Assembly (NCBI GenBank): GCA_018830645.1
Contig: JAHJSA010000050.1
Coordinates: forward strand, 62,001-126,000
Length of the DNA stretch: 64,000 nt
DNA from: Actinomycetota bacterium
Lineage (GTDB): Bacteria > Actinomycetota > Thermoleophilia > RBG-16-64-13
Direction of reading: 5' to 3'
The position numbers were made by a program, and so were the translations under genes. The notes below the pieces were generated by a model. The model made no database searches. It had not been told where the DNA came from and was given only the letters and a program-made list of their open reading frames with translations. Shown one piece after another: positions 23,479 through 29,727 of this stretch (its first letter is position 1; the number at the start of each line of letters is the position of its first letter).

Positions 23479-23510
23479 AGCTTCTCGCGGATCCTCGCAC
23501 GTGATGTGAC

Positions 23511-23530
23511 GGGCCGGCGCCTGCCGGCCC
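23511..23530 (+). terminator. GC-rich hairpin between the lipoprotein and iscU-mnmA
   Basis: gggccggc-gcct-gccggccc perfect 8-bp stem; weak T-tail. Confidence 0.45.
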
Positions 23531-23550
23531 GTATGTTCGGTGGGCAGACC

Positions 23551-25020
23551 ATGACGCACGCACAAGACCACGACCCCTTTCCGCGCGCGTACGGTCCGCG
23601 CGTTCTCGAGCACCTTCGCGCGCCCAGAGGCGTGGGAACGCTCGAGAGCCCGGACGCGACCGGCTCCGCGGGCAGTCGAACGTGCGGTGACTTGGTCGTG
23701 ATGCACGCCCACCTCCGCGACGGGCGTATCGTCGAGGCCAGGTTCCAAGCCTTCGGCTGTCCGGCCACCATAGCTTCGGCGGCCGAGATCGTCCGACGGC
23801 TCCCCCGCATGACGATAGTCGAGGCCGCTGCACTCGGGCACGAGTGGATCGCCGAGCATCTCGAGCTTCCGCCTCACAAGAGAGGCTGCTCGGAGGTGGC
23901 CGCCGACGCCCTTCACAACCTTCTCGAAGACTGGGTGGGCTCGGGGCTCCCCCTGCGGCCCGATGGTCGCGAGGGCACCTACGGATTCCTGGTGGCCATG
24001 AGTGGTGGGGTCGACAGTTCCGTAGCTGCGCTGCGACTGAAGGAGACCGGACGACCGGTGACTGGTGTCACGTTCCGTCTCTGGGCCGACCCCACGTGTA
24101 GCGTTTCGAGCGGGTGCTGTAGTCCGGAGACGGTTCGGTCCGCTCGGCGCACGGCGCATCACCTGGGCCTGCCGCACCTCACCGTCGACCTCACGGACCG
24201 GTTCTTCGACGAAGTCGTCGAGCACTTCGTAGCGGAGTATGCGGCCGGCCGGACGCCGAACCCGTGCGTGAGCTGCAACTCCGTGCTCCGTTTCGACGCA
24301 TTGATCGAATTGGCCGACCGCCTCGGGGCGAGCCACGTCGCCACGGGACACTACGCCCGCATGATGGGGAGGCCGCCGCGCCTCCACCGCGGGGTCGATG
24401 TCGACAAGGACCAATCCTACGTTCTTTCGAGGGTCGATCCCCACCTGTTGGAGCGGGTGGTCTTCCCTTTGGGCGACTTGGTCAAGTCCGATGTGCGTCG
24501 CCTTGCGCGCCAGGCGGGTCTGGAAGCGCACGACGCCGAAGAGAGCCAAGAGATCTGCTTCATCCCCGACGACGACTACAGGCGGTTCCTGGCCGACCGT
24601 CTGGGTCGCCGGGTGGGCGCGATCGTCGATGGTCGGGGGGTCATCCTCGGCTCACACGACGGCACGTTCCGCTTTACGATCGGGCAGCGCAAGGGCCTCG
24701 GCATCTCTTCTCCAGAGCCTCTGTATGTGACCGCGATCGGCGCTGCCGACGGCACCGTCGTCGTGGGCACCCGCGACGACCTCAGAGTGACCGAAGTACG
24801 TCTCGGGCACGTCGTCGAGCACCGGGAGCGGGGGAGGGGCCCGCTGACCGCACAATTGCGATCCAGTGGGGGGGTCGTCGCGGTCGAGATCGGATCCGAC
24901 ACCCATGACCCAGTCTTGAAGCTCGCGACTCACGGGCTAGGCGTGGCCTTGGGGCAGACCGGGGTCGTGTATGAAGCCGACGCGGTGTTGCTCGCAGGGT
25001 CGATCGAGGGAACGCGCTAG
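23551..25020 (+). CDS. mnmA: IscU-like Fe-S scaffold domain fused to MnmA tRNA-specific 2-thiouridylase
   Basis: N-terminus: YGPRVLEHLRAPRGVG...TCGDLVVMHAHL...FQAFGCPATIASAAEI...LELPPHKRGCSEVAADALHNLL. C-terminus: VAMSGGVDSSVAALRLKE...GRTPNPCVSCNSVLRFDAL...GASHVATGHYARM...DQSYVLSRVD. Confidence 0.93.
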   Translation: MTHAQDHDPFPRAYGPRVLEHLRAPRGVGTLESPDATGSAGSRTCGDLVVMHAHLRDGRIVEARFQAFGCPATIASAAEIVRRLPRMTIVEAAALGHEWIAEHLELPPHKRGCSEVAADALHNLLEDWVGSGLPLRPDGREGTYGFLVAMSGGVDSSVAALRLKETGRPVTGVTFRLWADPTCSVSSGCCSPETVRSARRTAHHLGLPHLTVDLTDRFFDEVVEHFVAEYAAGRTPNPCVSCNSVLRFDALIELADRLGASHVATGHYARMMGRPPRLHRGVDVDKDQSYVLSRVDPHLLERVVFPLGDLVKSDVRRLARQAGLEAHDAEESQEICFIPDDDYRRFLADRLGRRVGAIVDGRGVILGSHDGTFRFTIGQRKGLGISSPEPLYVTAIGAADGTVVVGTRDDLRVTEVRLGHVVEHRERGRGPLTAQLRSSGGVVAVEIGSDTHDPVLKLATHGLGVALGQTGVVYEADAVLLAGSIEGTR

Positions 25021-25550: not shown

Positions 25551-25798
25551 TGGGCAGGTTCTCCTTCGGGCTCACTGTCGCGTTGACCGCCGCGGCCGCG
25601 GCCGCGGCCGCCCTCGCCTATCGCATCTCGCGCGAGACGGGCAAGAGTCTCACCGAGGCGTTGGCCGAAGTCCCGGCTGAAGCGGAGCGATACCTCGAGG
25701 AGGTCGTCACCCGCGGCCGTGAGGCACTCGACGCGGGGCGCAGTGCGGCCGCCGAGAAGCAGGCGGAGATCGAGAGACGTCTCAACGAGCGGGCTTGA
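25550..25798 (+). CDS. YtxH-like small membrane protein
   Basis: Poly-Ala TM followed by a charged amphipathic helix; directly after the DUF948 gene. Confidence 0.55.
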   Translation: MGRFSFGLTVALTAAAAAAAALAYRISRETGKSLTEALAEVPAEAERYLEEVVTRGREALDAGRSAAAEKQAEIERRLNERA

Positions 25799-25821
25799 AG
25801 ACCGGACCCCGGGCTAGCGTC

Positions 25822-26226
25822 ATGTCCACTGCCTCAGACACCGTTTCCCTCACCATCCCGCGTGCTCAGGAGTACCTGCCCCTCTTCAACATGCTTCTTG
25901 GAGGCATCGCTACTCGGCGCGTTCTTTCCCTGGAAGCTCTCGACGATCTGCAGCTCGCCGTCGACAATGTGATCCTCGAGGACCGTGGCACCACGGGCGA
26001 TCTCTCTCTCGCGGTGACTCTTCTGGAAGAGGCACTGGAGATAGTCATCTCCCCGCTCTCCGATCCCGACCTTCACAGCACGTTGATCGAGGGCTCTGTG
26101 TCGACCGAGGCGGCCGATCGATGCCTGGACGTATGCCTCCTGCTGAGCCCACTCGTCGATCGATACGTCGTGCATGATCTCGACTCGGGCACCTTCGCTC
26201 TCGAGTTGCGGAAACTGCTCCGGTAG
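25822..26226 (+). CDS. Anti-sigma regulatory factor-like protein (degenerate RsbW/HATPase_c_2)
   Basis: LDDLQLAVDNVILEDRG... resembles the N-box region of RsbW-type kinases; immediately upstream of a SigF-type sigma gene. Confidence 0.55.
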   Translation: MSTASDTVSLTIPRAQEYLPLFNMLLGGIATRRVLSLEALDDLQLAVDNVILEDRGTTGDLSLAVTLLEEALEIVISPLSDPDLHSTLIEGSVSTEAADRCLDVCLLLSPLVDRYVVHDLDSGTFALELRKLLR

Positions 26227-26234
26227 GGGCATCC

Positions 26235-27056
26235 GTGGACATCGGCTCCGCTCACGTGAATACCGAACCGGTGCCTCTTCAGGCCCGCACGCCGAACGCC
26301 CCCGAGAAGGAGCTGCTCTGGCGCATCCATCGCGAGGCTGATGCGGTGGCGCGCGAGGAGTTGATCACGCGCTACCTGCCGCTCGTGCGAAGTCTCGCCC
26401 GGCGATTCTCTTCGCGGGGCCAGCCGGTGGAAGACCTCATCCAGGTGGGGTCCATAGGTTTGATCAAGGCGATCGATCGCTTCGACATCGAGCGAGGCGT
26501 GGAGCTTTCTACCTACGCGACTCCCACCATCCTCGGTGAGATCAAGCGCTACTTTCGCGACAAGGGCTGGGCGGTCAAAGTGCCGCGCGCCCTTCAGGAT
26601 CTGAACATCCGCCTCAACCGGATCATCGAGCAGCTCACGGTGGAACTCAATCGTTCTCCCACCATCGCCGAACTCGCTGAGGCGTGCGACGTGTCGGAGG
26701 AGGAGGTACTCGAAGCCCTCGAAAGCGGCAGGGCCTACAACTCCCTGTCTCTGTTCTCGAGTGGATCACCCGACGACGAGGATTCACTCGAGCTGCTCGA
26801 CTACCTCGGTCGCGAGGACGACGAGTACAAGTTGGTCGAGCAGCGCAGGTACCTGGCGCCCGCGATGGGACGGCTGGATGAACGAGAGCGCCTCATCCTC
26901 CACCTGCGGTTCTTCGAGGGGATGACCCAGACCCAGATCGCAACCCGTGTGGGCATCTCCCAGATGCACGTCTCCAGACTGATCCGCAAGTCGATCGAAG
27001 TCCTGCGACAACACATGGTCGATCAGGACGGTGTCCCACCCGACCCGTCCCGCTGA
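26235..27056 (+). CDS. SigB/SigF/SigG-family RNA polymerase sigma factor
   Basis: LVRSLARRFSSRGQPVEDLIQVGSIGLIKAIDRFDIERGVELSTYATPTILGEIKRYFRDKGWAVKVPR...QTQIATRVGISQMHVSRLIRKS. Confidence 0.93.
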   Translation: MDIGSAHVNTEPVPLQARTPNAPEKELLWRIHREADAVAREELITRYLPLVRSLARRFSSRGQPVEDLIQVGSIGLIKAIDRFDIERGVELSTYATPTILGEIKRYFRDKGWAVKVPRALQDLNIRLNRIIEQLTVELNRSPTIAELAEACDVSEEEVLEALESGRAYNSLSLFSSGSPDDEDSLELLDYLGREDDEYKLVEQRRYLAPAMGRLDERERLILHLRFFEGMTQTQIATRVGISQMHVSRLIRKSIEVLRQHMVDQDGVPPDPSR

Positions 27057-27108
27057 TGGAGAACGATCGTGCATCGTCCTCGAAAAGACGAGAACGTGGG
27101 AGATATGC

Positions 27109-29727
27109 GTGAAGACGAGTGAACTCCGGAGACTCTTCTTGGACTACTTCGCCAGGAACGGTCACCAGTTGGTTCCCAGCGCGTCGCTGGTGCCGTATCG
27201 AGATCCGTCCGTGCTACTCACGACCGCCGGCATGCAACAGTTCAAGCCATATTTCCTGGGCATGGCGGAGCCGCCTGCACCCCGTCTGACCAGCGTGCAG
27301 AAGTGCTTTCGCACCACGGACATCGATCGCGTGGGACTTACGGCCAGGCACTGCACCTTCTTCGAGATGCTGGGGAACTTCTCGGTTGGCGACTACTTCA
27401 AGGAAGACGCGATCCGCTTCGGCTACGAGCTCTCCACCACCGAGTTGGGCCTCTCGCCCGACCGCATATGGGTCTCGGTCTTCGAAGGTGACGATCGCGT
27501 GGAGGCGGACGAAGAGGCGATGGGGTATTGGGAGGCCGTGGGGATCCCACGTGCACGGATGGTCGCCCTCCCTCGTAGCGAGAACTTCTGGGGGCCGCCC
27601 GGCCCCACGGGCCCGTGCGGACCTTGCTCGGAGCTCTACTACGACCGAGGCGCCGCGGTCGGCTGCGGCGATGACGACTGCAGGCCCGGATGCGACTGTG
27701 AACGCTTCCTCGAGTACTGGAACCTGGTGTTCATGCAGTACAATCAGGATGAACAAGGGAAGCTCACACCGCTGCCGGCCAAGAACATCGACACCGGTAT
27801 GGGGCTGGAGCGCATCGCCGCCCTCATGCAGGATGTGGATTCGGTGTTCCTCACCGATTCCTTCCGCCCCCTCATCGAGTTGGGTGAAGAGATCTCGGGC
27901 GTGAAGTTCGGCACATCGGAACGCGCCGACGTGGTGTTGCGGGTGCTGGCGGACCACTCGAGGGCGATGACGTTCCTGATCGGTGACGGCGTCCTTCCCG
28001 GCAACGAAGGCCGTGGCTACGTTCTGAGGCGCGTGATCAGGCGCGCGGCTCGGTTCAGCAGAAGCCTCGACATGAGCCCGCCGTTCCTCGCGCGCTTCGC
28101 CGAGCGTACCATCGAGCTGCTTTCGGACGTGTACCCGGAATTGCACGAGCGGCAAGACACCATCCTTCGCATCGTCGATTCCGAAGAGGAACGTTTCAAT
28201 CGCACCTTGGACCAGGGGCTGGTGCTTCTCGACGAAGAGATCCGAAGGGCCGATGAGGAGGGGACCACCGTCTTCCCCGGGGCGGCCGCATTCGTCCTGC
28301 ACGACACTTACGGATTCCCGATCGAGGTGACCAGGGAGATCGTCGAAGAGCGCGGCATGGAACTCGATCGAGCGGGCTTCGAGAGCGCCATGAACACGCA
28401 GCGCGAGCGGGCACGGGCCACGAGTCGCGGCTCGGGCTCCGTGGAAGAAGCCATCGTCACCTTGGCCAGGACGGACGGACACCCCACCGAGTTCGTCGGC
28501 TACGCTCAAGACGAGGTGTTCACCGTGATCGAACGTCTACAGAAGCTCGAAGACGGCCAGGTGATCCTCAGTCTCCGGGAAAGCCCGTTCTACGCAGAAG
28601 GGGGCGGGCAGACAGCCGACATCGGTTGGATCGAGACTGATTCGGGGCGGGCGGAAGTCCGCGATGTCCAGCAGCACGGCTCGGTTCAGATCGTAGTCGC
28701 GCACGTCGTCGAAGGCGTTCTCCAGGCCGGAGTGCGGGCCAAAGCAGTCATCTCCTCCGTGCACCGGCACTCGGTTGCGGCGAACCACACGGGCACACAC
28801 CTCCTTCATTACGGTCTCCGCACCATGTTGGGAAAGGACGTGACCCAGGCGGGGTCCGCAGTACGCGCGGATAAGTTCCGATTCGACTTCGCGTATCACG
28901 AACCCCTCGGGGCGGGGCGACTGCGCGAATTGGAGGAGATCGTCAACCGCAAGATCGTTGAGAACCATCCGGTGCGGGCATTCACGACGAGTCTGGATCA
29001 CGCGAAAGACCTCGGCGCCGTCGCGCTCTTCGGTGAGAAGTACGGCGACTTCGTGCGGGTCGTCGAGGTCGATGACTTCAGTCGGGAACTGTGTGGCGGT
29101 ACGCACGTGCACGCGACGAGCGAGATCGGCATCTTCAAGATCGTCTCCGAGGGCAGCGTGGGAGCGAACGTACGGCGGATCGAAGCACTCACGGGCAGAA
29201 GAGCCGTCGAGTTCTACCGCGGGCGCGATACCTCGGTGTCGGAAGCGGCTCGACTCCTCTCCGTGCAGGAAGACGCCCTCGTGCCGGCCATACGCAAGCT
29301 GGAGACCCGAGTGGGGAGCCTTGAGCGTGAGAACAAGGAGTTGATGGCCGGCAACGCAGCGGATCTTGCGGCTGAGATCCTCGACACGTCCGTGACCGTG
29401 GGGGAGACCCGCGTGGCTGTCGCACACGTGCCGGCCCGGGACACCGACCACCTGCTCTCCCTCCTCGACCAAGTCCGTGACCGGCTTGCGCCGGCCTTAG
29501 TCGTTCTCGCAGCTGTTTCAGACGGGAAGGTCCTTGCCGTGGCTGGGGTCTCCGCCGGTGTGAAGGGGTTTCACGCTGGCGATCTGATCAAGGAGCTCGG
29601 TGCCGTAATCGGGGGCGGGGGCGGGGGCAGCCCCAGTCTAGGCCGGGGCGGGGGCGGCGATCCGACTCGACTCGACGCGGGCCTGGACGCCATCCGAGAC
29701 GCTCTGGTGGCCCGTCTGGGAGCCTGA
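27109..29727 (+). CDS. alaS: Alanyl-tRNA synthetase
   Basis: TTAGMQQFKPYFLG, FFEMLGNFSVGDYFKEDAI, NHTGTHLLHYGLR, CGGTHVHATSEIG; GTG start with GGGAG RBS. Confidence 0.96.
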   Translation: MKTSELRRLFLDYFARNGHQLVPSASLVPYRDPSVLLTTAGMQQFKPYFLGMAEPPAPRLTSVQKCFRTTDIDRVGLTARHCTFFEMLGNFSVGDYFKEDAIRFGYELSTTELGLSPDRIWVSVFEGDDRVEADEEAMGYWEAVGIPRARMVALPRSENFWGPPGPTGPCGPCSELYYDRGAAVGCGDDDCRPGCDCERFLEYWNLVFMQYNQDEQGKLTPLPAKNIDTGMGLERIAALMQDVDSVFLTDSFRPLIELGEEISGVKFGTSERADVVLRVLADHSRAMTFLIGDGVLPGNEGRGYVLRRVIRRAARFSRSLDMSPPFLARFAERTIELLSDVYPELHERQDTILRIVDSEEERFNRTLDQGLVLLDEEIRRADEEGTTVFPGAAAFVLHDTYGFPIEVTREIVEERGMELDRAGFESAMNTQRERARATSRGSGSVEEAIVTLARTDGHPTEFVGYAQDEVFTVIERLQKLEDGQVILSLRESPFYAEGGGQTADIGWIETDSGRAEVRDVQQHGSVQIVVAHVVEGVLQAGVRAKAVISSVHRHSVAANHTGTHLLHYGLRTMLGKDVTQAGSAVRADKFRFDFAYHEPLGAGRLRELEEIVNRKIVENHPVRAFTTSLDHAKDLGAVALFGEKYGDFVRVVEVDDFSRELCGGTHVHATSEIGIFKIVSEGSVGANVRRIEALTGRRAVEFYRGRDTSVSEAARLLSVQEDALVPAIRKLETRVGSLERENKELMAGNAADLAAEILDTSVTVGETRVAVAHVPARDTDHLLSLLDQVRDRLAPALVVLAAVSDGKVLAVAGVSAGVKGFHAGDLIKELGAVIGGGGGGSPSLGRGGGGDPTRLDAGLDAIRDALVARLGA

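Follow-up and report, generated by a model that had tools for sequence, protein, structure and literature searches.

The gene at 23551-25020 on the plus strand of the window, i.e. the whole 64-kb stretch of DNA that was analysed, encodes an IscU/NifU_N domain joined in frame to MnmA, the predicted tRNA 2-thiouridine(34) synthase. Fifty-two distinct open reading frames with this fusion were found, across most families of the class of the window organism and in other actinobacterial families. The Fe-S assembly site of the IscU-like domain is eroded, while the domain itself is retained and the first ligand cysteine is kept nearly throughout. An evenly balanced judgement takes the N-terminal domain for a captured IscU/NifU protein, an in-cis arm on which the desulfurase docks and which accepts persulfide sulfur for a C-type (Fe-S type) MnmA.

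The frame is open from ATG 23551 to the stop codon at 25018-25020, without a stop or frameshift between the domains, as a sequence-only reading of this DNA had described it. The earliest possible start is GTG 23506; ATG 23551 is preferred, because the relative L006 (82% identical) begins at the equivalent position. NifU_N (PF01592) matched residues 14-128 in ATG numbering (2e-22, 80 bits, cut-off 22), followed by MnmA at residues 147-485, or 162-500 counted from the GTG. The MnmA part scored above the curated equivalog cut-offs of NF001138 (3.6e-102, 342 bits, cut-off 284) and of TIGR00420 (278 bits, cut-off 237). No other MnmA is encoded in the genome, which is nearly complete (99.84%); the next match reached 29.6 bits, far under the cut-off. 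All motifs named in the sequence-only reading were recovered, TCGD (Cys45), FGCPATIAS (Cys70), LPPHKRGC (Cys113), SGGVDSS, NPCVSCN (Cys239, Cys242) and DQSYVL; overlooked had been the CC motif (Cys189-Cys190) and Cys336 of MnmA as well as Gly112 at the position of IscU His105. An assembly artefact or a chance frame is ruled out by the 52 distinct fused frames; some 50 distinct loci besides the window carry the fusion. The AlphaFold2 model of the window protein was confident and two-domain (pLDDT 92, pTM 0.90), its halves matching MnmA (2hma, 2deu) and IscU (7c8m, 4eb5, 3lvl); Foldseek placed the IscU-like domain on IscU 7c8m with a TMt of 0.85 and an rmsd of 1.4.

Table 1 Position of the fused gene, its domains and cysteines, and the downstream neighbour in the window
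Feature	Position	Strand	Remark
Fused gene	23551..25020	+	IscU/NifU_N domain + C-type MnmA, 489 aa; start backed by L006
IscU/NifU_N domain	23590..23934	+	Pfam PF01592, 2e-22; AF2 model matches IscU 7c8m, 4eb5, 3lvl
Cys45	23683..23685	+	IscU Cys1 (E. coli Cys37); 50/52 fused proteins
Cys70	23758..23760	+	IscU Cys2 (E. coli Cys63); 36/52 fused proteins
Gly112	23884..23886	+	IscU His105 position; assembly-site residue lost
Cys113	23887..23889	+	IscU Cys3 (E. coli Cys106); 8/52 fused proteins
MnmA part	23989..25005	+	HUP/PP-loop, PRC-barrel and C-terminal parts (TIGR00420, NF001138)
Cys189-Cys190	24115..24120	+	CC motif of C-type MnmA
Cys239-x-x-Cys242	24265..24276	+	CxxC motif; in C-type MnmA both cysteines are presumed to bind the cluster
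Cys336	24556..24558	+	last cysteine of CxxC-C, equivalent to E. coli Cys199
alaS	27031..29727	+	conserved downstream neighbour marking the nifS-iscU-mnmA-alaS order of relatives

The family scores and motifs identify the fused protein as a predicted MnmA with the PP-loop SGGVDSS at residue 151, and the cysteines CC-CxxC-C place it in the C-type. This set is the defining feature that separates C-type MnmA from the D-type found in E. coli (PMC11784392), and it was complete in 41 of 41 fusions of the window's class. Cys242 and Cys336 occupy the positions of the catalytic cysteine pair of E. coli, Cys102 and Cys199. The C-type enzyme of Thermus contains a [4Fe-4S] cluster and is active anaerobically and inactive aerobically (PMC8584467; Shigi 2020, cited there and in PMC11784392). 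The literature calls it unclear by what mechanism the C-type cluster passes on sulfur (PMC8584467), and for E. coli MnmA the sulfur route and the involvement of a [4Fe-4S] cluster are openly disputed (PMC11784392). The window protein resembles the Thermus thermophilus enzyme in PP-loop, CC, CxxC and third cysteine and in being the single MnmA of its genome, and differs from it by the extra N-terminal IscU/NifU_N domain. The Fe-S-dependent type of thiolation suggested by the sequence-only reading would fit the CxxC-C set of a class tied to a [4Fe-4S] cluster, and the proposed coupling of sulfur handling with s2U34 thiolation gains support from a fusion that is real. The unfused MnmAs sampled likewise have CxxC-C, so the cluster type alone does not explain the fusion. 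The CC motif is missing in 4 of 22 unfused and in 0 of 41 fused MnmAs, but a link to the loss of the domain was discarded, as it comes from two independent events only and is not significant. An extra cysteine, Cys183 (24097-24099), stands six residues ahead of the CC motif, mostly in f1 fusions that have IscU Cys3; it is also present in two unfused f1 MnmAs, which makes the link to IscU Cys3 doubtful.

By sequence and fold the N-terminal domain belongs to the IscU/NifU_N family. It stays below the equivalog cut-offs of TIGR01999 (IscU; 72.9 bits, cut-off 192) and TIGR03419 (79.5 bits, cut-off 188) and below that of the SufU family TIGR01994 (29.8 bits, cut-off 92.5). The 52 distinct fused domains were aligned with 55 stand-alone IscU/NifU/SufU (NifU_N) domains from fetched loci and compared at C37/D39/C63/H105/C106, the assembly-site positions named for ISCU2 (PMC11021402). 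The five-residue site was intact in none of the fused and in 49 of the 55 stand-alone domains. All three cysteines were present in eight fused domains, the window's among them, versus 53 of the 55 stand-alone ones; Cys3 was lost in 44 and Cys2 in 16 of the 52. Fusions with His105 lack Cys3 and those with Cys3 lack His105. The window domain, reading C, D, C, G, C at the five positions, is of the second kind. It thus shares with the IscU/NifU scaffolds the fold, the sequence family, three cysteines and the aspartate, and differs in being joined to MnmA and in the lost His105; most of its fused relatives have also lost Cys3 and often Cys2 and Asp39. Among the 41 fusions of the class, Cys1 is one of just three invariant columns. 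It is missing from two of the five f12 fusions; these two are without any ligand cysteine and still fused and in frame.

Purifying selection acts on the domain. Eight of nine pairs gave a dN/dS of 0.15-0.26 for it, the ninth pair being saturated, and the low values include pairs with Cys1 but neither Cys2 nor Cys3; a decaying relic is ruled out for the pairs tested. The Cys1-only relative L009 was modelled with a pTM of 0.92, still with the IscU fold packed against MnmA.

A survey of the distribution of the fusion, advised in the sequence-only reading, has now been run and shows it to be common to whole actinobacterial lineages. Contig scan and genome searches revealed it in families f1, f2, f5, f6, f7 and f8 of the window's Thermoleophilia-type class; the named records with the fusion are Thermoleophilia and Gaiellales. 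In the same phylum it was also present in families f19, f12 and f51, and a restriction to the genus of the window is excluded by the occurrence in other families. MnmA without the domain was found in seven f1 genomes and in all eight f4 genomes. The unfused MnmAs of f1 fall inside the fused clade, so the domain has also been lost several times. Proposed detached copies of the domain in two genomes with unfused MnmA (G003 and G008) turned out to be NifU_N proteins of another kind, with a different C-terminal domain. The loci L147 (3123-3971, minus strand) and L152 (2216-3022, plus strand), from relatives whose MnmA is unfused, encode NifU_N joined to a distinct C-terminal domain, NifX/FeMo-cofactor-like by eye. 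Among Bacillota, matches spanning both halves of the query were two adjacent genes and not fusions in those cases that were inspected.

The fusion probably arose from the joining of operon neighbours, since related families and Bacillota keep separate genes in the same order: nifS-nifU-mnmA in Bacillota and nifS-iscU-mnmA-alaS in f3. Partners, order and neighbourhood of these clusters are those of the fusion, but their genes are separate and the IscU site is intact. In f19 and f8 a desulfurase gene (nifS) immediately precedes the fusion, and many other actinobacteria have nifS right ahead of mnmA. In the simplest reading the linked nifS was lost in most lineages after the fusion. Several independent origins were considered, as a quick tree split off f12/f30 and f51, yet the AU test gave no support: a tree keeping f12/f30 or f51 within the main clade could not be rejected and had a higher likelihood (p 0.61 and 0.90). 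Between the fused gene and alaS (25795-27056) the window encodes a protein resembling, by eye, an RsbW-type anti-sigma kinase and without a Pfam match, followed by a sigma-70-family factor with Pfam regions 2, 3 and 4.

The sequence-only reading had noted that no desulfurase gene lies nearby, and the 64-kb window indeed contained no cysteine desulfurase match; with nifS directly upstream in f19 and f8, this is a lineage-specific trait. A search for a stand-alone iscU, also advised there, located two other NifU_N proteins in the genome, each directly behind a cysteine desulfurase, in the order iscS-iscU on contig C71 and tusA-nifS-nifU on contig C108. Further desulfurases are encoded on C76 and C67. 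TusA-family matches were on C108 and C76, the latter a second tusA-like match.

Cysteine desulfurases dock on IscU and NifU and pass sulfur to them. The retention of Cys1 alone at the front of a thiolase suggests a sulfur-accepting arm. A cysteine desulfurase would dock on the IscU-like domain and pass persulfide sulfur to Cys45, the equivalent of IscU Cys37. From there the sulfur would move to the MnmA active site, either to the cysteines of CC/CxxC-C or to the open iron of a [4Fe-4S] cluster with Cys239, Cys242 and Cys336 as ligands, and finally onto the adenylated U34. The domain would thereby fill the role of the TusA/TusBCD/TusE relay of E. coli, which likewise brings persulfide sulfur from the desulfurase to MnmA, but the Tus proteins are different and separately encoded and the MnmA they serve is D-type. 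Precedents for the acceptor role are SufU, in which the Cys1 equivalent accepts the persulfide (PMC10216065), and the E. coli IscS-IscU structure, in which Cys37, exposed and closest to the cysteine of the desulfurase, was suggested to be the first acceptor (PMC2854127). Besides the cysteine counts and the absence of the five-residue site, the gene orders with nifS, iscU and mnmA, the dN/dS values, the retained fold in the AF2 models and the complete CC-CxxC-C set speak for a sulfur-accepting arm. Of the proposals in the sequence-only reading, sulfur shuttling fits best, as judged from Cys1 being kept in 50 of 52 domains while the scaffold site was lost. Against a sulfur-accepting arm stand the genomes of f1 and f4 with MnmA lacking the domain, and human ISCU2, in which Cys3 is the acceptor and Cys1 is dispensable for persulfidation (PMC11021402). 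The two f12 fusions without Cys1 also count against it and indicate that thiol chemistry is dispensable in some lineages, where docking alone may be enough.

These f12 members likewise speak for a docking or structural module only, which would bind the desulfurase or the tRNA or add stability, all without cysteine chemistry. The AF2 models pack the domain confidently against MnmA, and Cys1 could be retained for the structure of its loop instead. Against such a module, which we consider unlikely, stands the invariance of Cys1 in 41 of 41 class fusions, while the neighbouring ligand positions drift freely. The main idea of the sequence-only reading was a genuine Fe-S scaffold, which would assemble a cluster and deliver it in cis to the CxxC-C site of MnmA. 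Some features agree with this: the window domain keeps C45/D47/C70/K110/C113, its MnmA is of the class shown to contain a [4Fe-4S] cluster in Thermus, and a stand-alone IscU adjoins mnmA in f3. As a general function, however, scaffolding and cluster delivery are not supported, in view of the missing five-residue site, with glycine at the His105 position in the window, of the frequent loss of Cys3 and Cys2 and of the persistence under selection of domains with one ligand cysteine. The separate iscS-iscU and nifS-nifU loci of the genome and the unfused C-type MnmAs of the same class speak against it as well, and we rate a scaffold as rather improbable; the role may survive in a few three-cysteine lineages, the window's included.

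Three-cysteine members, with C, D, C, C and no histidine, might bind zinc and exchange ligands with the desulfurase as described for SufU (PMC10216065). They resemble SufU in the IscU fold and in the histidine, which is missing in 8 of 8 three-cysteine fusions and likewise in three SufU-like stand-alone members, and Cys1 is the acceptor in SufU and the proposed one here. A zinc sulfurtransferase in cis is nevertheless very doubtful: the sequence is nearer to IscU/NifU than to SufU in the scores given above, and most fusions lack the ligands to hold zinc. Unlike SufU, the domain is fused to its acceptor enzyme. That Cys1 acts as an extra ligand or gate of the MnmA [4Fe-4S] cluster, controlling access or oxygen sensitivity and not carrying sulfur, is highly improbable, as unfused C-type MnmAs manage without Cys1, even if a single cysteine is conserved in the adjoining domain and the three-cysteine cluster of the related TtuA leaves one iron free (PMC8584467).

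The sulfur-accepting arm has a wider corollary, which we put forward tentatively, at somewhat below even confidence: a scaffold protein was exapted to a single-cysteine in-cis carrier, and desulfurase sulfur reaches [4Fe-4S]-dependent thiolation via an IscU-derived persulfide without a Tus-like relay. If true, C-type MnmA, an enzyme class with an unsettled mechanism, would gain a donor route in such a carrier. The fusion of a desulfurase docking partner to C-type MnmA points to a likely donor route and unites carrier and enzyme in a single chain that allows both to be tested at once. Intact separate IscU, fusions with three, one or zero cysteines and unfused MnmA form a natural series which reveals the scaffold features that the fusion can do without. 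MnmA, IscU and their linkage in operons are already known; a literature search that fell short of many subscription papers found no paper on the fusion itself, on its distribution or on the scaffold site being selectively lost.

Several loci show irregular or additional features. L119 / L150 (G006) has an in-frame TAG within the MnmA part of the fused gene, which may indicate a pseudogene, an error or recoding. In an f19 genome whose kin have the fusion, nifU and mnmA occupy separate frames that overlap (L222, 502-1990, minus strand), either a true split or a frameshift. Upstream of mnmA in G128, an in-frame hybrid joins the start of NifS to the end of NifU (L250, 786-1472, plus strand), possibly by a deletion or an assembly error. 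In the window, a perfect 10-bp inverted repeat (ACGGGCCGGC / GCCGGCCCGT) at 23509-23532, in the gap that separates the fused gene from the ORF upstream of it, is a possible terminator or regulatory hairpin.
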